Source of the DNA: Anadara kagoshimensis
Lineage: Eukaryota; Mollusca; Bivalvia; Arcoida; Arcidae
Reading direction: 5' to 3'
Assembly: GCA_021292105.1 (NCBI GenBank)
Contig: CM037874.1
Coordinates: forward strand, 60,475,261 to 60,539,260
Length of the DNA: 64,000 nucleotides
Below the pieces are notes generated by a model, which had not been told where the DNA came from, did not search any database, and saw nothing but the letters and a program-made list of their open reading frames with translations. Of this stretch, positions 31,636 to 63,692 are shown piece after piece. The translations under genes were made by a program, and so were the position numbers. Each line of letters opens with the position of its first letter. Position 1 is the stretch's first letter.

Positions 31636-32635
31636 NNNNNNNNNNNNNNNNNNNNNNNNNNNNNNNNNNNNNNNNNNNNNNNNNNNNNNNNNNNNNNNNN
31701 NNNNNNNNNNNNNNNNNNNNNNNNNNNNNNNNNNNNNNNNNNNNNNNNNNNNNNNNNNNNNNNNNNNNNNNNNNNNNNNNNNNNNNNNNNNNNNNNNNNN
31801 NNNNNNNNNNNNNNNNNNNNNNNNNNNNNNNNNNNNNNNNNNNNNNNNNNNNNNNNNNNNNNNNNNNNNNNNNNNNNNNNNNNNNNNNNNNNNNNNNNNN
31901 NNNNNNNNNNNNNNNNNNNNNNNNNNNNNNNNNNNNNNNNNNNNNNNNNNNNNNNNNNNNNNNNNNNNNNNNNNNNNNNNNNNNNNNNNNNNNNNNNNNN
32001 NNNNNNNNNNNNNNNNNNNNNNNNNNNNNNNNNNNNNNNNNNNNNNNNNNNNNNNNNNNNNNNNNNNNNNNNNNNNNNNNNNNNNNNNNNNNNNNNNNNN
32101 NNNNNNNNNNNNNNNNNNNNNNNNNNNNNNNNNNNNNNNNNNNNNNNNNNNNNNNNNNNNNNNNNNNNNNNNNNNNNNNNNNNNNNNNNNNNNNNNNNNN
32201 NNNNNNNNNNNNNNNNNNNNNNNNNNNNNNNNNNNNNNNNNNNNNNNNNNNNNNNNNNNNNNNNNNNNNNNNNNNNNNNNNNNNNNNNNNNNNNNNNNNN
32301 NNNNNNNNNNNNNNNNNNNNNNNNNNNNNNNNNNNNNNNNNNNNNNNNNNNNNNNNNNNNNNNNNNNNNNNNNNNNNNNNNNNNNNNNNNNNNNNNNNNN
32401 NNNNNNNNNNNNNNNNNNNNNNNNNNNNNNNNNNNNNNNNNNNNNNNNNNNNNNNNNNNNNNNNNNNNNNNNNNNNNNNNNNNNNNNNNNNNNNNNNNNN
32501 NNNNNNNNNNNNNNNNNNNNNNNNNNNNNNNNNNNNNNNNNNNNNNNNNNNNNNNNNNNNNNNNNNNNNNNNNNNNNNNNNNNNNNNNNNNNNNNNNNNN
32601 NNNNNNNNNNNNNNNNNNNNNNNNNNNNNNNNNNN
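31636..32635. other. Assembly gap of exactly 1000 N
   Basis: A round number of N is a placeholder between contigs, not a measured length. The left flank is satellite in mid-unit; the right flank is inside a viral DNA polymerase frame. Nothing shows that the two flanks are adjacent in nature. Confidence 0.98.
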
Positions 32636-32636
32636 G

Positions 32637-34997
32637 TACAAGGTGCTACCCGAGATGCCAGCGTCGCCTCTTACAGAGGAGATCGTCAAGACAATGCTTG
32701 ATATTCAAATGAAACACAAAAAATCAACGGACCCTCCATACTCGACAGTCGACGCGATAATGTTATTGTTCTATCTCTTTAAAGGGGATATCGACTGGAG
32801 ACCGTTCAATGCGTTGTTGGAAAAGTTTCGTGCCGTGGTCAACAACTGCTCCAAAAAGTTGAAGGGTCTTGAACATTTCTGTTCTTACGTCGTGCTTGTG
32901 AGACGTTGTATGTCTCCCATATCGGAGACGGCGGACTTGGTGTGGAAAGAATACAAGAAAAATCACAAAACGGACACCGTAGTAGCTGCCGCGCTTGAAC
33001 AGTTCATCAAATCAAATTTCGATGAGTTAATGATAGCCGCTAAGGAGTCTCAGGAATATCCGAAAGCAATGGCACCAGGTATGACACCCAATAAAGTGGC
33101 GGAAATCATTAAAAATCGAAACCGAGTCGCTGGCATCAAGCTCAAATTTTTACCTTACGATGGTGCCATGATAATCTTCAAGAAAGCCGACATTAACCTT
33201 GAAAACCCAATTTGTGTACTTGACTTTTGTAGCCAATACCCTAACGGTATGCGAGCCATCAACCTCGGCATAGACACCAACGTATCCATACAAAAAATCA
33301 TGAGGTGCATAGGTCTTATTCAAAAAACCCGAAAACTACCAACACGAAAAGAAGCTGCGAGGGTTTTGGAAAGGGAGTATGTGCACGTATGCTTTACTAG
33401 AGAAGAGGACGACGCCGTCGACTGGGTAAATTATCTCGAGGCCCCCGAGTACCTTTCTAGAAATTGTTTATTTTTTGTGCGCAACGTGACATCTATACAA
33501 AACCATCAGTTCAAAGCTGAAATTAAATCTAGAGTCATTGACAAGATTAAGGCCGAAGACAAATCTTTGCCTCTCGAAGTTAGAAAAAAACACCAGAATA
33601 GTAGCGCTGCTAAAAAGCTCAATATCAACTCTAGGTATGGGGTCATTCAATCTACAATTAATCCAAGATTTCAAGCCGCAGTTACGGGTGTTGGGCGCAG
33701 AAGCATTCAGACAGTTACCAAACAACTCAGAGAGATGATCGGAACTGAAGAAATGTACGGAGACACGGACTCGTGTTTCACCTTTATCAGGGACATGAAT
33801 GTTTTCAAAATGATGGAAATGACTTCAGAAGAAATGTACGAAAAGTTCAAATTTGGTACGTTAGGCCTGCCGTATGATAAATTTAAAACCACTATTTTTG
33901 ACAAGTACTATTCCATCGTAGACAAAAACGATCCAAAAAGTATCAGAAACGCCGGTGGTGGTATAGCGCAGGAGCTGTACCAAGTACTAGCCCCCGTTTT
34001 GTCAACGGAAGCTTTGGAGTTGGAAGCCGAGAAAAAGTCGCTCTGTCCCATGGTTTTACCGTCAATGAAGAAATACACGGCTTATAATTGCGTGACCAAA
34101 CGGTCTCTGACAAAAGGTCTCAGTATGCACAATAAGTCGGCTATACCCATGACAAAAACCATACTGGAAACGTTTGTGGAATTATTGGCTACTTGTTGGA
34201 ATGAACACGACTTAATATGTTCCTTATACGATTACCTCGGTAAGCACGTAACAGTACCCATTGAGGAAGGTGCCGTGGCTGCATTGAGTATTGCCAAACC
34301 GTGTTCGATAAACGTTAACAAAGTGAAGACAAAGTCAAAAAACAAAACACTTCTTAACTCAATGATTAGAGATGGTATGAACTTTATTTTCGAAATAATA
34401 CGCGTCAGACAGGTTCCCATCTATCCCGAGGATGGAGACAAAGATTGGTCCCTGTGCGATGTTTTGACACAGTCATGTAACGGCCGAGAGCATGTGGTAA
34501 AGATTAAGTACGACGTCTTGAAAGAGATCATGACCGTTCTGAAAGCAAAGTATAATCAGGGTGTTTGTGGTGTCGTTGAAGCTCTGATATGGGGTGAATT
34601 TTACCCGGACAGGTTCACTCCGGCCGATTTCGCAAAAATAGCCGCCGATAATCCCCAGCCGTATAAACCAGCAACATTTTCACAAATAATGAAAAGAGTT
34701 AGAAATGGTCACTGGTTGTTGGATCCTTTACCTTTGACAACATCATCTCAAAAGCCGTCAGTGCAACAGTCAACTAAGAGGAAATCGGATGGCGAGTCTG
34801 CTTGTGACGATAAAAAACAATGTAAATTAGACTTTTGGATGAGTGTTAAAAACAACAGTTGTATCAATACACCAATTCAACGTCCACCAAAAAAAAGTAA
34901 AAAACAGAAGAGTAAAGGAGGTAATCCAAAACAACACATTACACTTGAATACTGGAGAAATACCGGTTTTAATGTAATAACTACACAAACAAAATAA
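32637..34997 (+). CDS. Family B DNA polymerase, 5' part missing
   Basis: Replicative DNA polymerase of herpesvirus type. The frame is open from the gap edge and the first possible start is GTG, so the N-terminus with the exonuclease domain is lost in the gap; about 786 codons remain. The three polymerase motifs appear in order: DFCSQYPNGM (around 33229, motif A, usually D-x-x-S-L-Y-P), KKLNINSRYGV (around 33612, motif B) and YGDTDS (around 33757, motif C with both catalytic Asp). KKYT further on fits the thumb-proximal KK(R/K)Y motif. The C-terminal tail is basic and ends with two similar short motifs, KLDFW and TLEYW, perhaps for a processivity partner. An AATAAA overlaps the stop (34993-34998). 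Malacoherpesviruses encode such an enzyme; assignment to that family rests on the neighbours as well. Confidence 0.9.
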   Translation, partial: YKVLPEMPASPLTEEIVKTMLDIQMKHKKSTDPPYSTVDAIMLLFYLFKGDIDWRPFNALLEKFRAVVNNCSKKLKGLEHFCSYVVLVRRCMSPISETADLVWKEYKKNHKTDTVVAAALEQFIKSNFDELMIAAKESQEYPKAMAPGMTPNKVAEIIKNRNRVAGIKLKFLPYDGAMIIFKKADINLENPICVLDFCSQYPNGMRAINLGIDTNVSIQKIMRCIGLIQKTRKLPTRKEAARVLEREYVHVCFTREEDDAVDWVNYLEAPEYLSRNCLFFVRNVTSIQNHQFKAEIKSRVIDKIKAEDKSLPLEVRKKHQNSSAAKKLNINSRYGVIQSTINPRFQAAVTGVGRRSIQTVTKQLREMIGTEEMYGDTDSCFTFIRDMNVFKMMEMTSEEMYEKFKFGTLGLPYDKFKTTIFDKYYSIVDKNDPKSIRNAGGGIAQELYQVLAPVLSTEALELEAEKKSLCPMVLPSMKKYTAYNCVTKRSLTKGLSMHNKSAIPMTKTILETFVELLATCWNEHDLICSLYDYLGKHVTVPIEEGAVAALSIAKPCSINVNKVKTKSKNKTLLNSMIRDGMNFIFEIIRVRQVPIYPEDGDKDWSLCDVLTQSCNGREHVVKIKYDVLKEIMTVLKAKYNQGVCGVVEALIWGEFYPDRFTPADFAKIAADNPQPYKPATFSQIMKRVRNGHWLLDPLPLTTSSQKPSVQQSTKRKSDGESACDDKKQCKLDFWMSVKNNSCINTPIQRPPKKSKKQKSKGGNPKQHITLEYWRNTGFNVITTQTK

Positions 34998-35183
34998 AAA
35001 CACTTGTACCCGCAAAAGCTGTTATTGTTATTAATGTAACTCCTACTGTTATAACAAAGACAATGTTATCGCCCAGAGACATTGTTGTTATGTAAATATT
35101 TTTTCTGTCTTTCAACTAATACTTCTTTACCCCCCCCCTCCTTTCAACTATACACTACAGCTTATCATTTTTTGTTAGGGTGT

Positions 35184-36077
35184 TTAGGGAATCAAACACG
35201 ATACACACAGGGACACTAAAAATATAATCTCAATGAAGAAATGATATGTGTCACGCATACCAGTATCTATATTCTTATTTTTATTCAACAAAACAAACAC
35301 CGGTAAACACATTACAATTACCGGTACCGCCATACAAAATACTATAATCATCACGTTTCCGGATACAATTTTTTTATCTTCTGAGGTCCATTGTACTTGT
35401 ATAATTTTACTGGTAAATGCATACACCACCATTATCGTGTAGTATATTGCGGGTAATATCAATGATTCGACCTTTTTTACAAACATCATTTGAACAAAAG
35501 TAAGACTCGTCACCATACCCGTCAGGACCAATACTTCCAGTCTGCTTTCTCCTGCCCTTATCATAATTGTCTCCATAATAATCATCGACATGGCTGCATA
35601 TTTTATCCAAGCTATGTTTGCATAATTGTTTTTGATAGTGAGAAATAATGCGAAATTTGAAATCATTATCGAGAATGACAATACTATATCTATTATCATC
35701 GGAAAAGACGTCCATGATTTTCCCCAAAATTCAATAGGATATTGTGTGAGGTTGTCCCCTTTTAATATAGCGACCGATATGGAAACACATATTAAAAATA
35801 GTTCTATTCCTATTACCTTTAGTATAAAAAAATTTACTTTTGGTACATGTATGGAACTAGACTGTATCAACGGATCAAATTCTGGGTCGGGCTTAACGTA
35901 TTCAACCATCTTTGAACACCGATTTGTTAAAGTTGACAAATCGCCATCAGAATTATCTGGGTCACTTATATGTGGTATAGAAGTATTTTTAAAATCACCC
36001 AAATCAATCTCCGTTAGTTGCACGTCAACATCATATTTCGTTTCTGCCATACTCTGTGTTTTAAATTTTTTCAACAA
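35184..36077 (-). CDS. Seven-transmembrane viral membrane protein
   Basis: 297 residues. A hydrophilic N-terminus of about 80 residues, acidic, precedes seven hydrophobic segments at about 82-105, 125-148, 154-173, 181-200, 205-223, 238-264 and 278-296, the last reaching the C-terminus. The even spacing of seven segments and short loops recalls Bax-inhibitor/TMBIM-type or GPCR-like viral membrane proteins, but I see no signature motif for either. The start is not certain: Met10 is an alternative. The upstream DNA contains a second, diverged copy of the 5' coding end. It converges with the polymerase gene (186 bases between). Confidence 0.75.
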   Translation of the reverse strand: MLKKFKTQSMAETKYDVDVQLTEIDLGDFKNTSIPHISDPDNSDGDLSTLTNRCSKMVEYVKPDPEFDPLIQSSSIHVPKVNFFILKVIGIELFLICVSISVAILKGDNLTQYPIEFWGKSWTSFPMIIDIVLSFSIMISNFALFLTIKNNYANIAWIKYAAMSMIIMETIMIRAGESRLEVLVLTGMVTSLTFVQMMFVKKVESLILPAIYYTIMVVYAFTSKIIQVQWTSEDKKIVSGNVMIIVFCMAVPVIVMCLPVFVLLNKNKNIDTGMRDTYHFFIEIIFLVSLCVSCLIP

Positions 36078-36160
36078 ACCCTGATTTAACCTCCGTTAAT
36101 TGCACGTCAATGGTTTCCGTTAAAACTCTGTGTTTTATTTTATGACAACAAACCCTGATC
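36009..36160. repeat. Tandem duplication of the 5' end of the seven-TM gene
   Basis: CTCCGTTAGTTGCACGTCAA near 36010 and CTCCGTTAATTGCACGTCAA near 36091 begin two copies of about 75-80 bases. Both continue through ACTCTGTGTTTTA to CAACAAACCCTGAT. The first copy is the coding start of the gene; the second is noncoding and partly diverged. Confidence 0.75.
36074..36159 (-). promoter_or_regulatory. Two copies of recurrent viral intergenic motif (ACAAACCCTGAT)
   Basis: Copies at 36074-36085 and 36148-36159, upstream of the seven-TM gene. They match the motif ATCAAGGTTTGT found before other viral genes with one mismatch (G in place of A). The remainder of 36161-36429 is AT-rich leader for the next gene with no frame of note. 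Confidence 0.5.
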
Positions 36161-36429
36161 TAGGTTAAGGAGAGTTTGGCGTAAACAACAACTGACACCT
36201 GTCACTCAAATATATGGGCGTGACTATAACTTGTTGGATATGTTTACACGTTAGAGACCGCAGTGTTTGTCAAGGTATTGTAAAACGAGACATTAAATTT
36301 TTAGACACGAATGGAATTTGTAATGGCTGATTAATTTTAAACCATTGATTGCTGTGAGTAATAAAAAAAAACTGTGTACTAATAATAATCAAAAGTGTTT
36401 GACATTGTTGAAAAGAACTTGAAAAAAAA

Positions 36430-37494
36430 TTGAATATGGATATGAACAAGAAACAGAAACTAGTGCGTAAATACATCTGTCCAGATAGATTCCGGAATGG
36501 ATCTTTAAAACGAAGGTCGGAAACATCCAAGTACGAACCAGATGTTAAAAAACATTGTTCCAACTGTCTCAATACAAACTTAGTCAGTGTTAATGAGATA
36601 AGTAATGCCGTGAAGCAACTAGTACACACGACATGTGATCAGTGCGGTGTTTTGTGGAAGGACATTAAAGAAACCCGCAAAGGACATTTGGACATGCATA
36701 TCAGGAACTCAGCTTCGCGTGTGGGTATCGACATTAGCGCAAAAATAAACGCTCGTAAACATAACGACAAGAGTATTGAAGACCAAGCTTACCTGAAGTA
36801 TTGTTCGGATAATTTAGGCAGTGCTACCACCAAAGTCAGTAAATTCTCAAAACTGACCGGAGAAGAAAAACAAAAATACACTTCAAAAGTTGAAGGGGAT
36901 TACAAACAAGACATGTCATTTTTAAAAAGAACAGCCTTTTGGAATGATAGGGTGGATGACAGACCAGCGGTGGATTTATTACAAGTGCCTTTTTTTCTGC
37001 ACCAAAAGAACTCTAAAAGATTCCCTTTTCACGAAATAGTGAAAACTTATGGGACATATCGTTATATTTTCAATTATATACAAGATGAGGTATCACCACA
37101 TGTTACATTTATAACAGACATTGATGTCTCGACAGATAATTGGGGTACAGAAAACTACGTGTGTTACAAATGTACCGAACCTTTAGAGATAGACTTTACT
37201 TCTTCCGATTGTCCAAAAGTTAAAGACTCTAAAGCTTGTTCTTGTTCCATACACAACCCAACGGAATACACCGACAGAGAAGAGGATCCCCCAGAGTATG
37301 TTTCACCGCAATTGGACCTTTTAATGAACATTCTTACTCCGGAAAATGGTAAGCGTTCTAAACCAGTAAATACCCAGATACCTGTGACTTACTTAGGAAA
37401 AAAGAAATTTTTATATCAATGTAATGACATGTTTAGTGCTTATGTAATTCATTTAAATTGTTGCAGCAACCCTTTCAATAAGAACAATTTGTAG
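36430..37494 (+). CDS. Viral Cys-rich protein, unknown function
   Basis: 354 residues; I do not recognise a family. The N-terminus is basic (KKQKLVRKY, LKRRSE). Two Cys pairs, C43-x-x-C46 and C69-x-x-C72, spaced like a zinc ribbon, are followed by a Lys-rich region. A second Cys cluster near residues 240-275 (CYKC, CP, CSC) may bind another zinc. No signal peptide or membrane segment. The likely start is the first ATG at 36430; another Met at residue 3 is in frame. A nuclear or DNA-linked role is possible from the basic and zinc character, but this is inference. Confidence 0.7.
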   Translation: MNMDMNKKQKLVRKYICPDRFRNGSLKRRSETSKYEPDVKKHCSNCLNTNLVSVNEISNAVKQLVHTTCDQCGVLWKDIKETRKGHLDMHIRNSASRVGIDISAKINARKHNDKSIEDQAYLKYCSDNLGSATTKVSKFSKLTGEEKQKYTSKVEGDYKQDMSFLKRTAFWNDRVDDRPAVDLLQVPFFLHQKNSKRFPFHEIVKTYGTYRYIFNYIQDEVSPHVTFITDIDVSTDNWGTENYVCYKCTEPLEIDFTSSDCPKVKDSKACSCSIHNPTEYTDREEDPPEYVSPQLDLLMNILTPENGKRSKPVNTQIPVTYLGKKKFLYQCNDMFSAYVIHLNCCSNPFNKNNL

Positions 37495-37810
37495 GTCTAC
37501 CATGGACTTTACATATGACAAAAAAAAACATTAAATTTTCATTTATTGTAGAAATAAAGGAAAATCATTTAGATACATTATGGACAATAAAATGTTTGAA
37601 AATTACTATAACCAGGAAAGAGTATGATAGAATGGAATTATTTGTATTCATGGAATATTTTTGTTTTGTAATTATGTTTGAATTTGAAACTACTGCTCAG
37701 ACATTTTGATTGTATATATTTTACTTATGTTATTTTTTTATAAATAAAAACAAGAAAAAATTATATATATATATAAATATATCTTTTTTTTTTTAATTAC
37801 ATTAATAAAT
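37495..37810. other. AT-rich space between convergent genes
   Basis: Holds a short frame of 64 codons (37515-37709) behind an A9 run, with lysine-rich, low-complexity composition, and an (AT)n stretch near 37760. An AATAAA-like signal at about 37741 could serve the upstream gene. I see no firm gene. Confidence 0.5.
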
Positions 37811-40035
37811 TTATAAAAGTAATAACGCTGCCATTTTATGTAAATCTGCCTTGAGCGGAATGACCGGCATGATGAATCTTGAACTATCGAGGTCCTGACC
37901 GATCTCATTATAGAGACCTAGTCCCGTTTTTTGTGCAATTGATTTCATGACTCTGTAATGATTTGTATTGATTTCGTATTCATCCACCAACAGCCTTGTA
38001 AGTGATTGTAAGCGGTCTGTATCTCTTTGCTGGTCATCTAAAATCGCATGGGTGTGTTCAATCGCAGAGTTGAAATCTTCAAACGTTCTCAATGTCGTCG
38101 TTCTGTTATTTTTATAAAGGCGCCTTTTAACTTTCATAATGAGATCGTCGGGATCGACTACTGCGGCAACTTCTTCATCGAATTTGAGCATGTCCACAGC
38201 CGCTTGGGGTTCGATGTATTGAAATTTATTAAATTTGATGGCCCACTGTTTTAATAGATGTTTATTCAGGTGTCTCAAAATGAAAAAAGACGAAGCAAAG
38301 TCTCCCTTAAACAACTCTAATGTTTCGGTCACTTCTTTCAAAACTTGCATTTTAATCGAACTTAGATCCCCTTTGAAAATTGAATTGAAACTTTGAAGAG
38401 TAAGCGTGGTGTATTTAGAGATGTTTTTAACAAACAGCTTCTTACAGGTTTTTAAGGCCTTGTTCAAATGAGATTCCTTTGTAAGAAATTCGTGAGTTAA
38501 TTCCCATGAAGCCTGGCGATACTCAACATTTCCGACTTGTGTTGTTGCTATGAGTAAGCCGACCAAGACGTCAAAAATAATCTCGGGGACTTATTGAAAG
38601 ATCTTTCTAGTTTATGGGTCTTAAACACCATAGCATCTAAAGTGTCTTCCATGATGTCTGATTGTAATTGATATCCGTCCCATAATCGTGGATGCCAAGA
38701 TGTGTCATTGTTGTCGTCGTCGTTTGAACTGTTAATCATGTTCATATGATCAAACACTATTCCATCTGAATCCTGGTATTGAAAATCTCTCCTACGTTCC
38801 GACACGAACAGATTTATTGTTGAAGATTGTCGGTTTCTCCCTAATCCTTGGTATATGTCAGCGACACATGGCGTGTGGTCAACAGATAACCCATCCACGA
38901 TCACAAATGTCTGCGTGGCCCATTTGAAATTCAAATCTACTCCAACACTCACACATGTAGTATGAACAAGAACACGTTTGTTTTTTAACCCTTTTTGTGG
39001 GTCTGAAATGAAAGTCGATTTGACCGCTGTGGGTGTGGTTCCAGTGAGAAGTACTACTTTGTCGTTTCCTACTAGTTTCTGCACGAAATCAGCGATAAGA
39101 TTTGCTTGAGTACGAGTGTTACATAACACAACAGCATTTTCACCGAGGTTCAAAAGTACATGCATGAGGTAACCCCCAATGTCTCCGTCGTGTTGATGTT
39201 TATGTGATTTATAGGCTTTGGTAACTAAAGTGATAAACAAATCTTTGGCCGCCGATCCGTGTTTAGAGATAAAGAAATTCTCAGTTTTCATCATGTAAAA
39301 TTCTTCCTTCCCCAGCACATTTTTTAGTTTCCGACAAAACACTTTGGAATAGATAGAATAACTGACGAGTAACGAATCAAATACACGTACGTGATGATAT
39401 TTGTGACTATATTCATTAACAATACACACTTTTTTTCTCCTCGTCAATCCCGATAAGAGGTGCTTGTCTATAGCCGATAGGTGCCAAGGAGCAAGTGTCG
39501 CATCTGTTATAATCACCGTAGAAATGTTTGAAACAATGGTTCTGATGTATTTTGCAATATTTTTTCTTTCATTCATCGGTGTAACAGGCGAGATGATCTC
39601 GTTGAACACGCCGTTGGGTTCATCTATGTACACGAGATCCCAATGAGCAAATGTGGTTTCCGATTTGATAGCCTTAATGCGCCGTAACGATTGTACTTGA
39701 ATTATGACCCGTGGGTGTTCCTCTGCCGATATAGGTCCATTGATGTCCTGATAGTTAATCAATTCTGGTACAACAGTGCACATGTACGAACTATAAGACC
39801 GGCGACTAGATATTATCAACACCCTCTCATACTCTTTGATCACATTTAAGAACATGGCCGTTTTACCGCTACCCATGGGGGATTTTACAATCAATACATC
39901 GTGCGTATCAAGTTCTCTTCCAACATCACTCACGTATCTCTGATTGATTTTTTGATTCGTGCATTGGCTTGATGGGTTATTAAATGGAAATCCGTATAAG
40001 TTTTTCAAAGCATACTTTACGACCCCCGTTTGCAC
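37811..40035 (-). CDS. Origin-binding-protein-like SF2 helicase, frame-broken
   Basis: The first frame (40035 to 38548, 495 residues) has helicase motifs in order: I MGSGKTA (about residue 54), II VYIDEPNG (DE-box), III ITDATLA, V TTCVSVGVDL and VI QGLGRNR. The set and the variant spellings resemble herpesvirus UL9-type origin-binding helicases, which unwind replication origins. A second frame (38566 to 37811, 251 residues) starts only with TTG, lacks an ATG for its first 75 codons or so, and overlaps the end of the first; it looks like the C-terminal part of the same protein. The break falls in 38548-38592, with a G4 run at 38585-38588. Whether this is a true lesion or an indel error cannot be told here. 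The gene is divergent from the UL24-like gene, 54 bases away. Confidence 0.8.
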
Positions 40036-40089
40036 GTGCTCTATTGGAGTTAAATTTTCTCCTTCTTCTTCTTTTCTTTTCTTTTTTCG

Positions 40090-40671: not shown

Positions 40672-40746
40672 CATTTACATTAAACATTTAAATGAAAATT
40701 CAAAATCCCCCATACTCACTACGTGTCCGGATAACAAAAAAATTTC

Positions 40747-40885
40747 ACAAACTTGAATCTGATATACAGATAATGTATGCACATGACATTTGATCTTGAA
40801 ATTTTTTATCACAAACCTTGTTATGTAATACAGATAAATTAAACACAGGATTTGGCCCTTGATATTTTAAAACACAAACCTTGAT
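40747..40885. promoter_or_regulatory. Three copies of recurrent viral intergenic motif
   Basis: ACAAACTTGAAT (40747-40758), ACAAACCTTGTT (40811-40822) and ACAAACCTTGAT (40874-40885) lie in the 458-base space before the exonuclease gene. The frame of 68 codons antisense to this region is low complexity and not called. Confidence 0.55.
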
Positions 40886-41008
40886 ATTTGTTAACAGACT
40901 ATTTACCGAGCTAATTTTGATATGTATTTGAAACTTTTTTGTCGGACACAAACATTAATCTAAACAACGAACTACGTTTTAAATAAATAAACATAGAAAG
41001 CCGTGTAG

Positions 41009-41020
41009 TTATAAAAGGGG
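41009..41020 (+). promoter_or_regulatory. TATA box of the exonuclease gene
   Basis: TTATAAAAGGGG, a near-ideal TATA element, about 110 bases before the ATG at 41131. It leaves room for an RNA start near 41045 and a leader of roughly 85 bases. Confidence 0.65.
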
Positions 41021-41130
41021 GTGTCAGAAAAAATCTTTATAATTATCACTCAAACGTTGTCCAAGAGCAAGCATACATCAGACGTTATCTTTGTTACCTT
41101 GTTTTATTATTAACTGTACAACTACCACCA

Positions 41131-54120: not shown

Positions 54121-56213
54121 TTACAACGGACACTTGCAATTAGTACCAATCCAAGGTGGTGTACAATGCGTTATTTGTTCTGTATGCAGGTTTGAAATAC
54201 GCTTGTCTGCCGTCAATCTGTAGGATATGCCGTGATATAAGCTCATAACTAGGCACGTAGTCATATCGTCGGTAGAAACCTTGTTAATTTTTCCCGTATA
54301 TTTACGATCCTTATAGTGAAAGTTTTTATTTCCTCCACAAGGTGTTCTATAGTACACGTGTTTTTGGTAAACACACCATGTTCGACCGTAGAGGCTATCC
54401 TAAAATGTGTATTATGTCTATTGTTTAAGAAAGACACTATGGTGCTAAAGATGTGTTTTTTCCTTACTCCTATATTATACCCATAAGACAAATTCCGACC
54501 ATTGTAAACATCCACGTAATAAAAAAAATCACATTGGCGTTTCGTGACCACTCCTTTAGAATGAAGGTTTACCCAAGTGTTGTAATAAGATCTAACGGCG
54601 TCTGGATTGCTATTGCGCTCGATAGCAACGAAAAAATAACATTTGACCGGAGACATTTCCACTAGGGTAGTCACACATTGTACATACATTTCTTCAATGA
54701 TATCCGATACTCTCCCAAGGTCGCCATGATTTACAAGTTTCCTATCGGCAAAGCATAATACGGCTTTGTTACCGCGAACAAAACGAACGCACGTAATAGC
54801 AATGGCCGATTGTTCCGAAGGGTGAAAAGCGGGGTCCATGTAAATCCAGTAACATGCATATTCCTGGTCATAAAGCAAATCTTGTATTCTAACGTGGGTT
54901 AACGGATTACGTATGTGGTTTATAAACTCTTTCGTGAAAACGGCTCTTGTTGAATCGTCGTCGTTCTCGGCATCATATCTCCCGTGTGCCACATCCTCGG
55001 GGCGTATAACACCTAGCTCGTTTTCATATGAAGCTTCAGATCGAGTGATTACTCCTTCAAAGTTTTTATTAGCTTCATCGTACGTTATGTATTTAGGGGC
55101 AAACAACTTTCTATAGCATCCCGTATGCGAAACACTATATTGTACGTGTAACCCATTCATACAAAAGAAACACAACCGATAAAGGTTAATCGTACTACAT
55201 TTTGACTTCATGTTGACAACCAAATTCACTAAAGCATATTTCTTACTCGATATCGGACTAGACAACATTCCGATCTTAGTGTGGTCCCGCTGAATCATTG
55301 CAATAATGACACCGAGCGACTCTTCGGGCACACACAGGGCTTCATCTAAAAATCCAATATCGGGATCATTACCTCTTAAGGAGGAGGGTCTACATGCCGA
55401 AGCGTACTTGAGTCTACTACTGCTTCCGTCTTTGAAATGTAAGATAAGGCTGTCTTCATGTTTTCGCATTTCATACCCGTAAACAATGGGGGAAAATTTA
55501 GTCAAAAGCGTGGTTTCAATATCGTCTTTCGTTGTGCATATCAAGCTTCTTGTGTGTGCCATAGAAAGTATTTCACAATTTCTCCATGTGATTAACGCGA
55601 CAGCCACCGACAACTTGATGCATCTCGTTTTTCCTAACCCGCGGGGGATTATAGAAACGTACTGTTTTCCCGTATATTTTTGTCTCATACGGTCGATGGA
55701 GGCTATGGGAAACCCTAAATATGTATCGTTACATCCCAATATCATAGTGGTTAGTAAATCTTCGGACGTTTTATGCATACAATAATAAAAACATACTTCG
55801 TAAAAAATAGACTTTTGAAACATTTGATGAGTGGTCGTTTCATTCTCCATGACATCGCTATGTATTCGATTGAGAAACGTAACAAATGGTTGTAAGATTT
55901 CGAGAAGCTTCTTGAGTTTTGCTACTCCTTCCTCGGGTTTTCCGGTATATTCTGGAGAGGGTCCATACAGGTCGTCGAACAAATCATTTTGAGTATCAGA
56001 ACAAATTAAGTATGGATTGTACGAAAAAAACAGTTTATTGTTTTGTCTACATCTGGGAGTATCAAAAATCAATCGTTTGTATATGTAAGTGTCTGCTTTT
56101 TTGGTTAAAAGATCGACCCACTCATCGTCGTCGTCCTCCGTTACACTTCCCCACAAATCATTGTGTGTCATAAAGATTTCGAAAGAACATCTATTCGGGT
56201 TTGTAATCAACAT
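54121..56213 (-). CDS. DNA packaging terminase ATPase/nuclease subunit, frame-broken near 3' end
   Basis: Motor that drives viral DNA into capsids and cuts concatemers. The main frame (56213-54261, 650 residues) has Walker A IIPRGLGKTR (about 188-197), Walker B DIGFLDEAL, and nuclease-domain motifs YMDPAFHP and FVAIERNSN, as in herpesvirus UL15-type terminases. The last nuclease element, with STDDMTTCLVMSLYHG (the DD-x-x-x-x-L-x-M-x-x-Y type motif), lies in another frame (54357-54121) that has only a GTG start. The break is at or beside the T5 run 54361-54365. Apart from that the gene is a single uninterrupted frame, without introns. It overlaps the upstream gene by 23 bases. This is the strongest herpesvirus marker in the window. 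Confidence 0.9.
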
Positions 56214-56835
56214 TATGTAATACGTCGTATCGAGTCTTTTTGACTGTCAAAATGTGTTCGCAACCGCCCTCTGGGAGTTCAGGATTGACTCCACGTTTTG
56301 AAACTGTGCCCGAACGATCGGACGCTGATTTTGGACAAACGTAATCCGTCCAACCAATATCGGAGTATGCATCAGTCAGTATACACAAGGGACATACAAA
56401 ATCATCACGAAACATTTCGTCTAATTCCTTTTTGGGATAACTAATAAAACTAGAAAGTTTACAGAAATTCATATAAACATCTTGTATACACTCTTCGGCG
56501 TCGTCCAATCCCAAAACAATTCTCTTGAAAGAGTCGACTTGTGTTTTTAACTGGTCAATTGTAATTCGTCCTTCCTCTTTCGTTCGAACACACTGATAAT
56601 ACAACGCTAAGTTACAAGAATCAAGACCGAAACTGGCAATGTTCACGTCGGGGATAGATTTATCCAGTAAAACGGACAGTCTATCACCACATCTGAGTTT
56701 GAAATTAACAAAATCGTCGTCCGTACAATTAACATTGTTTAAATAACACATCAAATGCAATAATTTACGTGATTTAGGTATACATCTAATCATAATGTCG
56801 TGAGTACGTTTACATTTTAAAACTTCAGCATCCAT
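56191..56835 (-). CDS. Viral zinc-binding protein upstream of terminase, unknown
   Basis: 214 residues, not recognised. Helical first 130 residues, then a Cys/His group: FVCPLCILTDAY, YVCPKS, and GGCEHILTVKK, suggesting one zinc site. It begins 2 bases after the dUTPase stop and its end overlaps the terminase start, so the three are likely expressed as a block. Partner or regulator of packaging is possible by position only. Confidence 0.65.
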   Translation of the reverse strand: MDAEVLKCKRTHDIMIRCIPKSRKLLHLMCYLNNVNCTDDDFVNFKLRCGDRLSVLLDKSIPDVNIASFGLDSCNLALYYQCVRTKEEGRITIDQLKTQVDSFKRIVLGLDDAEECIQDVYMNFCKLSSFISYPKKELDEMFRDDFVCPLCILTDAYSDIGWTDYVCPKSASDRSGTVSKRGVNPELPEGGCEHILTVKKTRYDVLHNVDYKPE

Positions 56836-56837
56836 GC

Positions 56838-57572
56838 TTAAACGCTCGTGGAACCAACACCCGTGTTTCCTCTGTCGTCGACAGATTCTTCCGAGTTTTC
56901 TATCGTCTGGATGTCGCTAGCCAAGAAATACTCCGTTTTCAACTCACCATGTAGCAATCGAGGCACCAGTATAGCAATTCTGTCACCCGCTACGTAATTA
57001 TACTGTTCAGTCGGTGAACTGTTGTAGATTGTAATAAATACCTCTCCTCGGTCAGTGTTATCCATCACCCCTCCGACCGATATTCTTCCCCGCGTAGCCA
57101 TACTCGATCTATCCTTAACTTTCATGAAACAACCTTCGGGTGGAATTACGTATACACCTGTAGGAATAGTTTTGCTTGTCAACGGAGGAACATGTCCATC
57201 CGTTAACGGACTGATGTCGTAACCTACGTCATTTATATATCTCATTCGAGGGATAGCCCCCTCTTTAACTTCTTCAGACAAAAAGAAGCGAACGTACGTG
57301 TCACATGGTTCAATCATGTCTAGTGATTGTAATTTGGCATTCGTAAACATACTTTGTTTATTCAATCGCCGTCTCCAAAGTGGTATAAACCCACCCAATG
57401 GTGTTTCACGATGTTGTTTGTCTGTGGTTTTATCGTCACTGTTTTTTATATACTCATTCATACTGTTTTTCATAGACTTATTCTGATCAACACAAAACTG
57501 TCCCGTTATCGGTCTCATGTATCCTAAATACCGGTTTGACGTAGTCCCAATTTCATTAATGATTCCCGACAT
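56838..57572 (-). CDS. dut: dUTPase
   Basis: Hydrolyses dUTP to dUMP and pyrophosphate, keeping uracil out of viral DNA. All five motifs are in the standard order in 244 residues: 1 DVGYDIS (115-121), 2 DRSSMATRG (154-162), 3 GVMDNTDRGEV (168-178), 4 GDRIAILV (196-203), 5 DRGNTGVGSTS (233-243). One copy of each, in order, means the trimeric form and not the doubled monomeric form of mammalian herpesviruses. Motif 3 has Asp where most enzymes have Tyr. About 85 residues precede the catalytic core, an extension of unknown role. TATA-like ATATATATAC lies just upstream (57583-57592). Confidence 0.9.
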   Translation of the reverse strand: MSGIINEIGTTSNRYLGYMRPITGQFCVDQNKSMKNSMNEYIKNSDDKTTDKQHRETPLGGFIPLWRRRLNKQSMFTNAKLQSLDMIEPCDTYVRFFLSEEVKEGAIPRMRYINDVGYDISPLTDGHVPPLTSKTIPTGVYVIPPEGCFMKVKDRSSMATRGRISVGGVMDNTDRGEVFITIYNSSPTEQYNYVAGDRIAILVPRLLHGELKTEYFLASDIQTIENSEESVDDRGNTGVGSTSV

Positions 57573-57631
57573 CTCTGTTATGTATATATATAGTATTTTT
57601 TCGGTACATTGTTTGTGGTTTGTTGTTTAAG

Positions 57632-57685
57632 ACTAAGGTTTGTGGCAGATTTTGTTTTGTGAAATAATTCTATAATCAAGTTTGT
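57632..57685 (+). promoter_or_regulatory. Two copies of recurrent viral intergenic motif
   Basis: ACTAAGGTTTGT (57632-57643) and ATCAAGTTTGT (57675-57685) lie in the 145-base space between the divergent dUTPase gene and the gene starting at 57718. Confidence 0.55.
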
Positions 57686-57717
57686 TGATAATATTACATC
57701 ATTTCATTTCATCCGTC

Positions 57718-58441
57718 ATGTTATCTCTACATGACCTAGCAACAAGTCCCGAGGATTTCGTGACTTTAGGTGGGAACATTTTACACGGGCAATAGTATTC
57801 AAAACGTTTTTCTGTAACCCAGACAGAGACTTTATAGTCACTCCACAAAATGTCTTGGAAAACGGAACTATTGAAGAAAAATTCCCTCTGGATGCGATAT
57901 TTGACTGTCCCCTGTTTCCCACTCCATACAAAAGAAACTTATATCGACTGTATGTTACAATAGCGTACGTCACAAAAGGCATACAATTAGGTATTCCGTT
58001 TGATCACATGAGTAAACTGAGAGCAATAAGATACGGACACACACAAATTATTAACACCTATTTCAATTCCGAACGAGACCGACAGATTGCAATTGCTCTT
58101 AAAGACATTTATTCGGTACTCAACACCGATGTCATTTCCCACCCGTTTCAAGAAACGACGTTCTCCCGGTGGCCACGGATATCATCTGAGAGATGCATGG
58201 ATACCTTATCTCGAATTCTTTTTTGTTGGCGTATATGTGTTTTGAAAAAAAGTTTAACAAAATAGTTCCAACGGGTACAGTCCTCCGACAATCAATTTCG
58301 TTAGATGTTTTTAACCTGAAATACACATGTAACTGTCTGAGGGTGGTGTATAATTCCATGAGCGTAATGATAGAAGGAGCTGCACTATCGGTGCTGACTG
58401 TGTATCTTTTAATGTCTTTTCTCTCAAACTCGTCTAAATAG
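57718..58441 (+). CDS. Unknown viral protein, probably split by two frame breaks
   Basis: An ATG at 57718 opens a frame (MLSLHDLATSPEDF) that stops at about 57795. A second frame, open from 57735 and lacking an ATG, continues to 58265 (FPLDAIFDCPLFPTPYKRNL). A third, open only from 58190, ends at 58441 with a hydrophobic stretch (ALSVLTVYLLMSFL). The changes fit one-base shifts in 57735-57795 and in 58190-58263, the latter with a T6 run at 58219-58224. The sum would be about 240 residues. I do not recognise the family. Two or three separate small genes would be the other reading, but the lack of ATG codons argues against it. Confidence 0.5.
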
Positions 58442-58501
58442 TATTTAATGGCAGCAATTTCATTCGCATTGTCGTGATGAAAAAATCAGCCATCATCAAT
58501 A

Positions 58502-59747
58502 ATGGAGTTTCCGTACACAGATTTTGTAATAGTTGATTCGTTGTCGTTAGCTATCCAGTCGCAAGGATTGTCAACTAATAATAGTACTCCGGTCATTACA
58601 CCCCCCAACCCCATCGCTCAGTTCGACGCACTGTGTGATGCCGTGGCCAAAAGTTTTGGATGTTCTCTTTATCTAGATGATAAAGTAAGGAAGTCTAAAA
58701 ACGTATACAATACCCATGGACCTGCATCAAACACAAATGTCGTATTCATTGAACGCAGTCCAGAAGCGTTTATAATTAGTCCTCAACAACAAGACACCAG
58801 TTGTTACTCTAGGTACGAAGCCGCACATGCAATTACAAATCTCGAAGAGCTCGAAAAGGCACCGGAAAACATTGAAAATTACGGAAGATTTCACAGAGGA
58901 AGCTTTAGGATGGTTTTATGATGTATTTAAAAACGATCCCAAAAGCCCTTATAGTACAATTCCTAGAAACGTGTACCCGGCAGACCTAAAAGAAAGTGCT
59001 AGTAGCGTCCCGCGAGGAGAAAACGACATGATAATTCAATGTCCAGAAAAAGACGTTATCCATGTGTTGGGGTATTCCTCAAGAGGCATGATCACCTTTC
59101 CCAAATCAACTTTGTATACAAACAAGTTATCGACACCGATCCTTAGAGTTCCAGACGGATTGGGTATATGTTTGGTGGCTGGTGCGCAAGAGATTTTCCT
59201 TTTAAGCTCATCCTTTAATCCCATTCTAGCGTTTCAGTTTATTCCACAATTTGTTAGATTCGTAAAAGCTATCGGAGTCAAAGGATGTTTCATTACCGTT
59301 TTAGACGACCCCATACCAACCAAACTAGACGAAATTATTGATGCAGACATAGAAGCTAAATACGGAAACCTAAGGGTGGGAACAAACATTGTGCAAGGAG
59401 AATGTACGTATGATTACGAGGCACTTGATCGTGACGGTATACCTCAATCAAGTACAATAAACCATTTAGTATCACGTTGGGGTATTACAAAACCAATTTT
59501 GTGTGTCAAAGAGTCGTTCCTGTGTATGAATCTTCATACCCTCGAACGTATAATTGAAGTGATTGACGGATACTTACCCAGAGACAGATCGGTCATTTAC
59601 AAAACCATTGAACGATTCGTTAATTTTTTATATCGCGTGGGCTATTCCGGAGAAATACCTCAATACGAAAACTTGACTGATGCGTTTGTGGCATACCAAA
59701 ACATTAAAGTGATAAACAGCCAGCTAGTTACTAAAGAGGAACATTAA
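58502..59747 (+). CDS. Unknown viral protein, one frame break
   Basis: Frame one runs 58502-58921 with an ATG at its start (MEFPYTDFVIVDSL). Frame two, from 58827, continues to 59747 with a clean globular composition (YSSRGMITFPKS; LRVPDGLGICLVAGAQ; NHLVSRWGITKP). The last sensible part of the first frame (LEELEKAPENIE) joins the second by a one-base change in 58827-58921, near short A runs at 58864-58880. Total about 415 residues, no membrane segment or motif I can name. Confidence 0.6.
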
Positions 59748-59755
59748 CCATCGAC

Positions 59756-59845
59756 ATGTCTCCCTTTTCGAAGTATTCACGATATCAAGAACTTTGCATA
59801 CGGGACTGGAAAGAAACCAATTCAAACGTTTCATATACGATTTAA
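59756..59845 (+). CDS. Possible mini-gene, 29 residues
   Basis: ATG at 59756, 8 bases after the previous stop, to TAA at 59845. Basic and Ser/Tyr-rich, with one Trp. Its place right after a gene and before an AT-rich spacer is suggestive, but a frame this short can arise by chance. The rest of 59846-59997 is (AT)n and T-rich. Confidence 0.25.
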   Translation: MSPFSKYSRYQELCIRDWKETNSNVSYTI

Positions 59846-59997
59846 ATTGGAATATTGTATGTATATATATATATATATAGTATATTAAATTAAGAACAAA
59901 AATCTGTGTTTTTTTTTTCTTTGCTTATTTATCATGTGCTATGAAATACAATAAAGTACATTCACATATATGTATATACAGTCTCGTGAATGATAAT

Positions 59998-60699
59998 TTA
60001 ATGATTGATAAGTAAGTTAGAGACAGCTGAACTAAATGAATCATCTTGTGAAATGATGCATTCCAAACATTCTCCCTGGATTCTAGGTGAATCAAATACA
60101 ATTTCAAAAGAACACTGGAATGTTACTGAATCTACGGTCACTTGTGGTATCCACGTTTTGTTGAAATGTGTTGTGTGGTCCGTTTTACCTTTATACATAA
60201 CGTACCCAGCCGCCGATGTTATCGAATCATCTGTTGTTAACGAATCGTTAATAATTCTTGCATGGTGTGATTTTTCTAATTTGAGTGGTATAAATGTATC
60301 CCGAAACGTGATTGAGGGGGCACAAAAATAAGTCTCTTTATCTGAACGGGAAATGATTCCCGTTTTCAAAAATCCCGTAATGGCGGTGTTATCAACAACA
60401 TTCATATCTTTTGTATCCCATAGGACAAGACCTTCATTACATTTCCATTCAATCAAAAGTTTATACACGTTGCTTATATATTTACATTTTTGTAATATCA
60501 CGTTGTTTATCTTTAAATCGATTATTGAGCTTCTTAAATACATTCGGTTTAGGTCCGCATTGTAAAAGATGATGTGAAAAGCTTTCGTATTCACACCTTC
60601 TATGCAATAAAAAAATGTCCAATAATGACCCCCAAACGACACTCTGGAATTTCCCAAAACCCATAATTTAGACGTCACAATATTAACGACAATTTCCAT
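59998..60699 (-). CDS. Unknown viral protein, beta-rich
   Basis: 233 residues, alternating hydrophobic and polar residues through most of the length, suggesting a beta-sandwich. No signal peptide, membrane segment or zinc motif. It does not show dUTPase motifs, though diverged dUTPase-like proteins of herpesviruses can lose them. It is divergent from the IAP gene, with 115 bases between the two starts. Confidence 0.6.
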   Translation of the reverse strand: MEIVVNIVTSKLWVLGNSRVSFGGHYWTFFYCIEGVNTKAFHIIFYNADLNRMYLRSSIIDLKINNVILQKCKYISNVYKLLIEWKCNEGLVLWDTKDMNVVDNTAITGFLKTGIISRSDKETYFCAPSITFRDTFIPLKLEKSHHARIINDSLTTDDSITSAAGYVMYKGKTDHTTHFNKTWIPQVTVDSVTFQCSFEIVFDSPRIQGECLECIISQDDSFSSAVSNLLINH

Positions 60700-60814
60700 G
60701 TTTGTTAGTTAACCTTGATAAACCCACTCGACTAATACACACCATTTATATGTACTGTTTTATAGGTTGAATAAGTAATACAAACACAATGTCGAAAGAG
60801 GTCATGCAGTCGGA

Positions 60815-62430
60815 ATGGATAGGATATCATCATTTGCACACTTCCCATTAGAGAGTCCAGTTCATACACTAAAGTTAGCGGAGGCTGGATTTTATTATCA
60901 AAACAAAAGTGACGAAGTTACATGTTTCAGCTGTGGTAGAAAGTACAGTGGATGGAAAACAGGCGATGATCCAATACGTATTCATCGGAACATATCTCCT
61001 CATTGTCGATTCATAATTGGGAATAAGAGCGGTAATATCACTGTCAAACAGAATGGAGAATCGTTTTTTTCTAAAATCGAGTCCTTAATAAACAGTGTTG
61101 AAAAAAACCCGCCATCGGACAATTCTAAAGGAGCTTGTGGTGGCAATGCGGAAAATGTTCAAAATAATTCTACTTCTAAAGTGGACAACAAACAATCTAG
61201 AAACCCACCCGTTTCGAGGAATACCCTTCAGGAAAAGAGTTTAGTTTGTCAAGATGACAGTCGAGACTTCATTTTGAAACCAAGTAGTAACAAAAACCAA
61301 CAGAGTGAAACAACGAGCTATGAACCATTAGGGATTACTACACAACATCCCGTTTATCCACAATATGCAATAACTGTAGTTCGAATGTCATCCTTTCGTC
61401 ATTGGCCTAAAGATAAGAAACAACATCCTCAGGATCTGGCTAAAGCGGGATTCTTCTATGAAGGTAAATACACTTCATTTTGTTTTTTGGCGGCGGGGGT
61501 GTTTTGGGGTCATTGTTTAACACATAATTATTTGTAGTTCGTTATCTCTTATACATATTTTTGTTTTATTTGATAAAACAGGTATTGACGATAGAGTAAG
61601 GTGTTTCTTTTGTGGCGGCGGTCTCGTTAATTGGGACCCTGAGGATATCCCATTCGTTGAGCATGCTAGATGGTACCCAAAATGTGTATTTTTGCGGCAA
61701 AGTAAAGGAGATGATTTCATTCTACAGATACAAAGGCAAATCCAGCAAGAGTATGATGATGTAAGTATATTTTTTGTATGTAACTATATTATTTTGGTTT
61801 GTATTGACTATGTTAGACATGTTTTGCCCACACTCACCCTTCCACATATAAATGTTTATTTTGTGTACCTTTTTTATATTTCAGTCGGTTAATTCGAAAG
61901 ACTCGGAAAAACAGAAAGAAACCGATATGATGTCTCACCCAGCTGTTATGAGTGTGATGGATATTGGAATTAATGTCGATATGATTCGAAAAGCTCTCCT
62001 TGAGGTTCATTTATCAACATTATCTGCAGATAACCTTTTGAAAAAAGTATGGGAAATAGAGGATTCCAAAAGAGAAAAAGAAACCAAAACGGCAACTGTA
62101 ACTAACGGAATTCAGGTTTCGGAAGAAATACAAAATACCACAGAACAGGTTTCTGAGGAAACAACACATACAGAAGACGAAGAAACAACACATACAGAAC
62201 ATGTTTCCTCAGCGGATATAAAAACAAACGATAAACTAGAAACCATTATGGGAGAAAACCAATATTTGAAGGAGCGACAGCTGTGTAAAATTTGTTTAGA
62301 CGCAGACGTTGCTATTGTTTTTCTACCATGTGGACACCTTGTTACGTGTGTGGATTGCTCTCATGCCATGCGTAAATGTCCTATTTGTAGAACGTATGTA
62401 AAGGGTACTGTGAAGTCTATATTGAGTTGA
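60815..62430 (+). CDS. Inhibitor of apoptosis (IAP): two BIRs, UBA-like segment, RING; two introns
   Basis: Three exons: 60815-61463, 61582-61760, 61885-62430. Donors G|GTAAAT and GAT|GTAAGT, acceptors AAAACAG and TTTCAG, phases 1 and 0, introns of 118 and 124 bases. BIR1 (about residues 8-70) and BIR2 each have the exact zinc pattern C-x2-C-x16-H-x6-C. A helical region (MSVMDIGINVDMIRKALLEV) resembles the UBA domain of animal IAPs, followed by a Glu/Thr-rich linker. The C-terminal RING has CKIC, CGHLVTC, CPIC. IAPs block caspases and act as ubiquitin ligases. Malacoherpesviruses are known to carry IAP genes. This one keeps an animal-style architecture with introns, unusual among its single-frame neighbours. 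TATA-like TTTTATAGG at about 60758. A different ATG at 60789 is out of frame. Confidence 0.85.
61464..61581 (+). other. IAP intron 1, inside BIR2
   Basis: 118 bases, GTAAAT to ACAG, phase 1, splitting BIR2 after the FFYEG stretch and before the zinc Cys pair. Reading through it would destroy BIR2 and stop at 61537, so the intron is strongly supported by the domain. Confidence 0.85.
61761..61884 (+). other. IAP intron 2, between BIR2 and UBA-like segment
   Basis: 124 bases, GTAAGT to TTTCAG, phase 0, T-rich before the acceptor. It joins QQEYDD to SVNSKDSEKQ in frame. Confidence 0.8.
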
Positions 62431-62443
62431 ATACATATATTAA

Positions 62444-62482
62444 AACAAAGTTTGTGACCGTTTTGTTTTAACAAACCTTGAT
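62444..62482. promoter_or_regulatory. Inverted pair of the recurrent viral motif
   Basis: ACAAAGTTTGTG (62444-62455) and ACAAACCTTGAT (62471-62482) face each other and could form a short hairpin between the IAP stop and the next gene. A TATA-like TGTATATAAAAA follows at 62516-62527. Confidence 0.5.
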
Positions 62483-62603
62483 TCAATATACTTGATTTGT
62501 CAACAAATTATTATTTGTATATAAAAATTCATGATTCCAAGGTGCTAGTTAATACCCATAATTGAATTGTGTTAGTGAATATATAACATACTAACAGGTT
62601 GAC

Positions 62604-63692
62604 ATGGTTTGTTTTTTGGCCATATTATTTCACACTTTGAATAAAATTAAAAGAAACGAAAGTCAAATGTTGATTGAGTTCTCTATCACCGACAAGACGT
62701 TGGAGAATGGATTTCAGCCTTTTAGGTTTCCTAGTTATGTGTTCAAGAACACAAAGACCCAGGAACAGCTAGCATATCAAGTATTGCAACGTACGCGTTA
62801 TGTTGATGTCATAACATTTGGGACTGGCACGACTCACATTTGTCACCTGTTAGACGAAAACTACTATCATTTGCAAACGATCGACTATGAAGGTTTAGTT
62901 TGGGCATTACGAAACAAAGCCCTGGATTTAGAACATTGTGAATTCATCCGTAATAAGAAGAAAAGTAGCATGTGTGAAGCCCTATTTTTGAGTATGTCCA
63001 TAAACAATTCGGCCATAAAAAGACGCTACAACATAAACGACAATCGTTTATTGGTGTCGGTGAACCCGATTCCATTGTATCTGAGTAAACCTGGTTGCGG
63101 TTTAGAACCAATTTTCGAGGTTTATGTGACCTATAACTCTTTCGAGTTGTTCAGGATCCATTCTATTGCGAAACGATACAAGTATCCTTTCTTCCCGAAA
63201 AGGTTCCGATACATTACGGTCGGAAGTCTTTTTTACAAGACTCACATGACTTTGAGGGAAATACGTTATCAGTTGCTGTTCGGTCAGAAACTAATGCCAA
63301 TGTTTTCGTACGAATGGATAGAAGAATATTCAAAATACCAGTATAAAAGTGACCGAGCCACATTCAAGCATTTGCGTGCTGCGTTTAAAGACAATGATAA
63401 TATGTACTCTGCAATAAACGAAAGCGCGTGGTCAGATCTTCACGAAAGTTGGTTTAACAAGATCATGTCGGAATCTGGGGTCTGCAGATGTATCGAAACT
63501 ACACCCAGAGAAGACCAGTTAGATGAGATCTTCAACGAACGCGCATACCACGAATATAACGAGTTGAGAAAGGAGAAATGTGGTCGTGAGTGGCACAAAT
63601 GTGACAGTATAACATGTGGAGAATACAGAGACTGTTACGGGAGTAGATATATCTACGAAGCCATCAGTTTAAGAACAGAAAAGACTACCTGA
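62604..63692 (+). CDS. Unknown viral protein with Cys-rich C-terminus
   Basis: 362 residues, not recognised. The first 20 residues include a short hydrophobic run (VCFLAILFHTL) that might be a signal, but Met22 (MLIEFSITDK) is an equally good start and would drop it. The body is rich in Tyr, Arg and Lys (RYNINDNRLL; KRFRYITVGS). The last 75 residues hold six Cys (VCRCIETT, KCGREWHKC, CGEYRDC). An upstream copy of the intergenic motif ties it to the viral block. Confidence 0.6.
   Translation: MVCFLAILFHTLNKIKRNESQMLIEFSITDKTLENGFQPFRFPSYVFKNTKTQEQLAYQVLQRTRYVDVITFGTGTTHICHLLDENYYHLQTIDYEGLVWALRNKALDLEHCEFIRNKKKSSMCEALFLSMSINNSAIKRRYNINDNRLLVSVNPIPLYLSKPGCGLEPIFEVYVTYNSFELFRIHSIAKRYKYPFFPKRFRYITVGSLFYKTHMTLREIRYQLLFGQKLMPMFSYEWIEEYSKYQYKSDRATFKHLRAAFKDNDNMYSAINESAWSDLHESWFNKIMSESGVCRCIETTPREDQLDEIFNERAYHEYNELRKEKCGREWHKCDSITCGEYRDCYGSRYIYEAISLRTEKTT

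Follow-up and report, generated by a model that had tools for sequence, protein, structure and literature searches.

Background

Integrated HHV-6 genomes have one prevailing orientation. Herpesviruses located at telomeres in the germline are known from HHV-6 and are suspected in sturgeon (PMC12031113). Acipenserid herpesvirus 3, a fish alloherpesvirus of sturgeon, is integrated with several host junctions and telomere-like repeats, and its telomeric position was inferred from an rDNA site (PMC12031113). Large herpesvirus-type DNA has also been described in invertebrate genomes, namely BelcheriHV-1 and earlier sequences of amphioxus and Capitella (PMC12373286, PMC5552708, PMC2994540). In the available parts of these reports, BelcheriHV-1 has one or two copies with repeat-rich flanks, and no link to telomeres was met; in PMC2994540, "telomer" occurs only in a reference on HHV-6. 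Teratorn, which derives from a herpesvirus and resides in animal DNA, is described as a member of the piggyBac superfamily (PMC5601938, PMC5822658). Among the titles and abstract openings listed from the open-access literature, none mentioned an invertebrate herpesvirus that is linked to telomeres or present in several copies.

In this study, we analyzed a window of 64,000 nucleotides from Anadara kagoshimensis (C18:60475261-60539260) together with its assembly (1.115 Gb, 36 contigs). As judged from the assembly, the herpesvirus DNA lies near scaffold ends, in two copies on the same scaffold as a nearby telomeric array, and is probably in the germline, which may correspond to the situation in HHV-6. 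All five placed copies lie <300 kb from a scaffold end and four of the five share one orientation, a pattern that may resemble the HHV-6 type (C19, C23, and C35 are not placeable). Unlike HHV-6, the virus belongs to another lineage, the host is an invertebrate, several block-wise differing copies occur in one assembly, 25-38 kb lies between the array and the conserved genes, and the array flank is only a candidate viral end. Whereas the sturgeon virus was placed through rDNA, the telomeric position here comes from scaffold positions and telomeric arrays. The window shares IAP-like genes with the amphioxus herpesvirus DNA, as far as the accessible text of those reports goes (PMC12373286, PMC5552708, PMC2994540), but its element occurs in several copies in place of the one or two of BelcheriHV-1. 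In contrast to Teratorn, no piggyBac-type transposase was present among the ORFs scanned here.

Structure of the window

The left part of the window is host-type, with repeated ORFs followed by a 56-bp satellite that also occupies the final 10 kb of scaffold C18 (Table 1). Three long ORFs built of many weak internal repeats were observed at positions 1-6732, and these are presumably exons of one large host lipid-transfer protein, judging by eye. The placeholder gap has exactly the length given in the initial annotation, and the gene at its right edge does start in mid-gene, as claimed there, the polymerase gene beginning left of the gap. No N was present in window 32636-64000 or onward through C18:60568260.

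The host stretch at window 9537-20451 has a second occurrence on this scaffold, beyond the right side of the viral contig (L023:1-10000), in two parts (98.6% and 92.3%), and again leads into the 56-bp satellite, up to the scaffold end. In the one counted part of a duplicated host stretch, 2.8 kb contained 10 substitutions and 7 indels. A false duplication or mis-scaffolding is possible. The join across the gap may be wrong, because the duplicate lies further right on the scaffold and because the C18 copy is reversed relative to the four other copies near known ends.

Table 1. Features of the window, with positions, strands, and the basis of each assignment.
Feature	Position	Strand	Basis
56-bp satellite array, host, ~252 copies	17480..31635		directly left of the gap
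Placeholder gap, exactly 1000 N	31636..32635		base count
DNA polymerase B, C-terminal part	32643..34997	+	Pfam DNA_pol_B 2.2e-11
Hypothetical protein, 297 aa	35184..36077	-	ORF list, Pfam
Hypothetical protein, 354 aa	36430..37494	+	ORF list, Pfam
Origin-binding (UL9-type) helicase, two overlapping frames (37811-38566 and 38548-40035)	37811..40035	-	Pfam Herpes_ori_bp 1e-24 (38548-40035), profile
Possible UL24-type nuclease, 193 aa	40090..40671	+	weak HSDR_N match
Possible nuclease by eye, 525 aa	41131..42708	+	marker for mapping copies
Three hypothetical proteins, 196, 205, 264 aa	42857..45283	-	ORF list, Pfam
Protein with ankyrin repeats, 980 aa	45367..48309	-	Pfam
Two hypothetical proteins, 482 and 211 aa	48529..51460	-	ORF list, Pfam
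Three hypothetical proteins, 222, 193, 341 aa	51593..54040	+	ORF list, Pfam
Terminase large subunit (UL15 type), 650 aa	54261..56213	-	Pfam DNA_pack_N (PF02500) 4.3e-9
Hypothetical protein, 214 aa	56191..56835	-	Pfam
dUTPase	56838..57572	-	Pfam 6.7e-14
Hypothetical proteins, 306 aa (+) and 233 aa (-)	58827..60699		ORF list, Pfam
BIR-domain (IAP) protein	60815..61537	+	Pfam BIR 2.9e-28
RING-finger protein	61852..62430	+	Pfam RING 1.2e-14
Hypothetical protein, 362 aa	62604..63692	+	ORF list, Pfam

Viral gene content and relatives

The DNA past the gap is densely coding, and the matches of its polymerase, helicase, terminase, and dUTPase genes bear out the herpesviral origin that the initial annotation had proposed, together with its naming of these four genes and of an IAP. 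Three Herpesvirales markers were identified, namely a UL15-type terminase, a family B DNA polymerase, and a UL9-type origin-binding protein. A profile of the terminase with 22 relatives matched the tripartite terminase subunit 3 (6m5r, 1.5e-26), as well as UL15 and UL89 chains, and the helicase matched the replication origin-binding protein 9hgj (9.5e-9). The predicted relations of terminase and helicase to herpesviruses are firm. BIR (IAP) and RING genes, as in Malacoherpesviridae, were both present, and such genes are not exclusive to that family. Residues 1-635 of the window terminase were matched by other copies, whose open frames are longer, and the helicase of the C5 copy is one open frame of 773 aa.

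The proposed UL24-like nuclease received some support from HSDR_N (0.0025, + strand), but the score was below the curated cut-off. Similarly, an E-x-K motif was seen by eye in the 525-aa ORF that had been called UL12-like, but this ORF had no Pfam match up to 0.05. No HK97-fold major capsid protein, portal, or protease was recognised by Pfam in the scanned ORFs, the distal part of the element being outside the scan.

The viral DNA, annotated at first as far as 63692, does not end there, and the copies run on at both sides. C35, C2, and C3 stay similar up to and past the window end, and C5 up to 63664. The C23 copy extends the element leftward by ~19 kb (C23:1-19353) beyond the far edge of the gap, with more large ORFs, and the exonuclease part of the polymerase was found further left in this copy. 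Two left-side ORFs of 830 and 783 aa are a putative helicase and primase by eye from their motifs, and PDB searches with both gave no useful match.

Among the matches listed, at least 26 proteins were related to the terminase (97-36% identical), and the named ones belonged to Elysia crispata, E. chlorotica, and E. marginata. Terminases and helicases of these sea slugs, which are known from database entries alone, fall in the same protein clade, with terminases 36-58% identical. In a tree of 23 rows, which leaves out P0015, P0018, P0019, and P0024 as partial, the window terminase joined P0001 (97%) within a supported group of nine members. Neither OsHV-1 nor HaHV-1 was named among the listed matches of a word-based search (26 terminase and 20 helicase, most of them nameless), and no relative was retrieved from IMG/VR with either the terminase or its profile.

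Copies across the assembly

The 525-aa protein had 16 matching stretches on 8 of the 36 contigs, comprising five large scaffolds (C2, C3, C5, C16, and C18), the small C23 (217 kb) and C35 (617 kb), and C19. The match was full at 99-100% in C35 and C2, full at 95% in C5, and in pieces in C23, C3, and C16. C19 had five pieces (49-81%), three of them with stops. This marker rules out a single young copy. Of the two options in the initial annotation, the young endogenous copy is preferred, with the amendment that there are several such copies, most of them close to scaffold ends. Nine stretches on six contigs matched the terminase, which was open on C18, C3, and C5 and interrupted on C35, C2, and C23; a search of the assembly contigs gave no terminase match on C16 or C19, indicating that these are partial copies.

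For the five placed copies (C2, C3, C5, C16, and C18), the distances to the nearest scaffold end, in ascending order, are 5.3, 6.4, 25, 117, and 298 kb. Under uniform placement, the chance that all five fall <300 kb from an end is ~9e-11, a value to be read with the possibility that scaffolding biases contigs endward. The polymerase side faces outward on C2, C5, C16, and C3 (for C16, the orientation of a fragment only) and inward on C18, whose copy sits behind the 1000-N gap. The C2, C3, and C5 scaffolds end inside the element, and C23 begins inside it. A possible chromosome-end habit is supported by these scaffold positions.

Divergence between copies

Copy comparisons with the window covered 4.0 to 28.6 kb per copy. 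Substitutions amounted to 0.47% in C2, C3, and C16, 0.55% in C23, 0.75% in C35, and 1.75% in C5. The differences were distributed in blocks: the window and C5 had 0 differences per kb at 37-40 kb, and at 48-53 kb there were 0-2 differences per kb between the window and C2, C3, or C23, and 5-14 per kb between the window and C5. The dUTPase block of C5 was highly divergent, and kilobases without substitution occurred between copies. Pooled pN/pS against the window was 0.25-0.34 in five copies and 0.45 in C5, with ORF comparisons of <60 codons left out of the totals, suggesting that most differences between copies arose under selection. This block-wise, selected pattern points either to recombining strains that had accumulated their differences under selection, or to gene conversion that acted among them afterwards.

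In the compared ORFs of six copies, in-frame stops relative to the window were seen in two C5 genes only. Substitutions and indels against the window in 10-kb stretches numbered 11 and 18 (L018), 15 and 15 (L026), and 16 and 13 (L030). The many indels are likely read errors, so that frameshifts prove little; with indels about as numerous as substitutions in some stretches, frameshifts were rejected as proof of decay. C16 was likewise rejected as a decayed copy, since its protein match has stops, yet the DNA comparison gave 0.47% substitutions and no in-frame stop; these stops therefore reflect frameshifts, possibly read errors. CpG content was not diagnostic as a test of host residence, with host pieces spanning 0.03 to 1.00; the viral DNA had no CpG depletion (o/e 1.13).

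Helicase loss and inserted elements

The origin-binding helicase gene is gone in four of six copies (C2, C35, C3, and C23) and kept in C18 and C5, C16 and C19 being outside the comparison. C2 and C35 lack approximately window 37944-39969, and C3 and C23 lack approximately 37774-39943; by sequence, the loss is apparently two deletions of a nearly identical stretch. Relatives of the terminase and of the helicase were listed on contigs of 53,064, 21,904, 97,136, and 7,978 bases, with the same sizes for both proteins. They are probably on the same contigs, and therefore the helicase gene is probably ancestral.

The C35 copy carries a TTAA-flanked MITE of ~270 bp at window 40703, and the C5 copy carries a related TTAA MITE at window 61812 (ends and TTAA by eye in both). 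Both sites are empty in the window copy, and the same family occurs three times at near full length in the DNA right of the C18 copy. The MITEs in the C35 and C5 copies and the divergent C19 fragment with stops are signs of host residence.

A 465-aa TnpB/Fanzor-type gene with a Cas12f1-like TNB domain was observed at L025:2229-4777 (C18:60560489-60563037), with a TTAA MITE on either side of it, the two being inverted relative to each other, where C2 has only ~135 bp. The gene and its inverted MITEs look like a composite transposon. Between the viral genes and the C18 telomeric array there was also a CRESS-type Rep gene (L024:4159-5133, - strand; Viral_Rep 1.1e-21 and an RNA_helicase domain). 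C2 carried a tandem array of a 165-173 bp unit (L012:1-4034), single pieces of which were seen in L011, L009, and L024. Fragments of this unit were present in the C35 and C18 copies, and their scatter suggests that reshuffled repeats are abundant at the element's inner end.

Telomeric arrays and their flank

Matches to (TTAGGG)6 were frequent genome-wide (6431 forward and 9766 reverse; 0 for the reversed control). A (CCCTAA)12 array with one short unit lies at C18:60564586-60564656, 25.3 kb past the window end, and C18 is gap-free from the viral genes through MITE-bearing DNA to this array and AT-rich repeats. Among the matches listed, C2 had outward arrays at 65628333, 65640764, and 65648370-65648669 and inward arrays near 65236918 and 65244419, ~0.5 Mb from its end; internal TTAGGG is thus common on C2. 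The third outward array (300 bp) ends 37.9 kb from the C2 equivalent of window 64000, continuity between array and viral genes being assumed across C2:65650600-65678999. A segment of 25-38 kb therefore separates the array from the conserved viral genes on C18 and C2.

The 2 kb at and after the C2 array end matched C18 beside its array (95% over 1003 bp, 98% over 475 bp, and 95% over 382 bp), and both arrays break at the identical TTAGGG phase. On the other side of the C2 array, 500 bp matched C18 only in the repeat and 29 bp. This match on the viral side only suggests that two different telomeric arrays were joined to one sequence. The common flank represents either the end of the viral genome or subtelomeric DNA that travels along with the virus. 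Beside the arrays it contains a 385-bp direct repeat starting TTAGGGGCT (L035:65-449 and 1620-2000; L025:5947-6331 and 1801-2171), amid which lies a small gene that is apparently split by an intron (by eye). AT-rich repeats in which a TGTAACTTA motif recurs come after the two remaining outward arrays of C2, and by eye the motif was also seen beyond the C18 array. A scan of L001-L034 and the window found telomeric arrays in L025 (C18) alone. None was present in the compared pieces of C3, C5, C35, C23, and C16, the inner ends of C3, C5, C35, and C23 being beyond the scan, and the flank had no match in the first 5 kb of C1, C2, C4, and C18.

Origin of the copies

We consider it probable, though by no means assured, that a herpesvirus of an undescribed invertebrate lineage entered the germline repeatedly and recently, at or beside telomeric repeats, and that the window holds one of the copies. 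This explanation draws on the five placed copies 5-298 kb from scaffold ends, the viral genes and telomeric array on one gap-free C18 stretch, the 95% agreement of the C2 and C18 flanks in the same TTAGGG phase with a different other side, and the distal polymerase side in four of five placed copies. It also draws on pN/pS of 0.25-0.45, the MITEs in C35, C5, and beside the C18 copy, and the divergent C19 fragment. Germline integration is likely, and direct targeting of telomeres is plausible but unproved. In the presumed mechanism, which resembles the one put forward for HHV-6, recombination or repair at TTAGGG stretches would probably link one end of the viral genome to telomeric DNA. The joined end would then lie inward and the polymerase end toward the chromosome tip; copies would later acquire MITEs and deletions and may swap segments. 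Against this explanation, scaffolders can hang ill-placed contigs on ends, and C2, C3, and C5 end inside the element. In addition, C18 is reversed, arrays were seen only at C18 and C2, and C2 has internal arrays of opposite direction.

Alternatively, the element may have been a subtelomeric passenger that entered once or a few times and then spread by ordinary exchange between chromosome ends, with the array flank being host subtelomere that has its own internal telomeric repeats. We regard this as rather unlikely. The three outward arrays within ~20 kb on C2 and the two inward ones near 65.24 Mb would suit it, as would the TTAGGGGCT repeat and the intron-split-looking gene in the flank, and block-wise differences fit gene conversion. 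However, the two arrays have unlike flanks on their non-viral side, the flank had no match in the initial 5 kb of C1, C2, C4, and C18, and the pN/pS values indicate differences mostly under selection and not passive host duplicates. That selection signature, together with undepleted CpG and kilobases free of substitution between copies, also accords with a free virus in the sequenced animal, several strains of which would have been assembled from an active infection and attached to scaffold ends. Also compatible with a free virus are the low number of substitutions, the indels that resemble read errors, the three scaffolds ending inside the element, the 1000-N join, and C16 stops that reflect frameshifts, possibly read errors, and not decay. 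Nevertheless, this origin is improbable given the gap-free passage of C18 from viral genes through MITEs to the telomeric array and AT-rich repeats, the junction common to C18 and C2, the MITEs inside two copies (C35 and C5), the divergent C19 fragment, and the partial state of C16 and C19, which have no terminase match. A fusion of transposon and herpesvirus like Teratorn, moved by its own transposase, could account for many dispersed, nearly identical copies, and TTAA-type MITEs and a TnpB/Fanzor gene are nearby. It is very improbable, however, as the MITEs lie singly inside individual copies and the 48 Pfam-scanned ORFs (four of them host; viral ends outside the scan) contained no transposase domain but the TnpB-type one.

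Implications for Herpesvirales

Returning to repeated germline entry at telomeric repeats, we tentatively propose, at somewhat less than even confidence, that an invertebrate herpesvirus lineage always uses the same end of its genome to integrate into telomeric repeats and is then passed on to offspring. Telomere integration would then be ancient or repeatedly evolved across Herpesvirales, and the helicase loss in four of six copies would mark copies unable to replicate independently. Such copies in assemblies can pass for contamination or infection, which calls for caution. If the explanation is true, an invertebrate herpesvirus would enter chromosome tips as a human herpesvirus does, and telomere integration would not be a vertebrate speciality. 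The copies would supply several strains, recombining with one another, from a virus lineage about which little is known. With a multi-copy case in an invertebrate, it would become possible to test across Herpesvirales how old telomere integration is and by what mechanism it proceeds.
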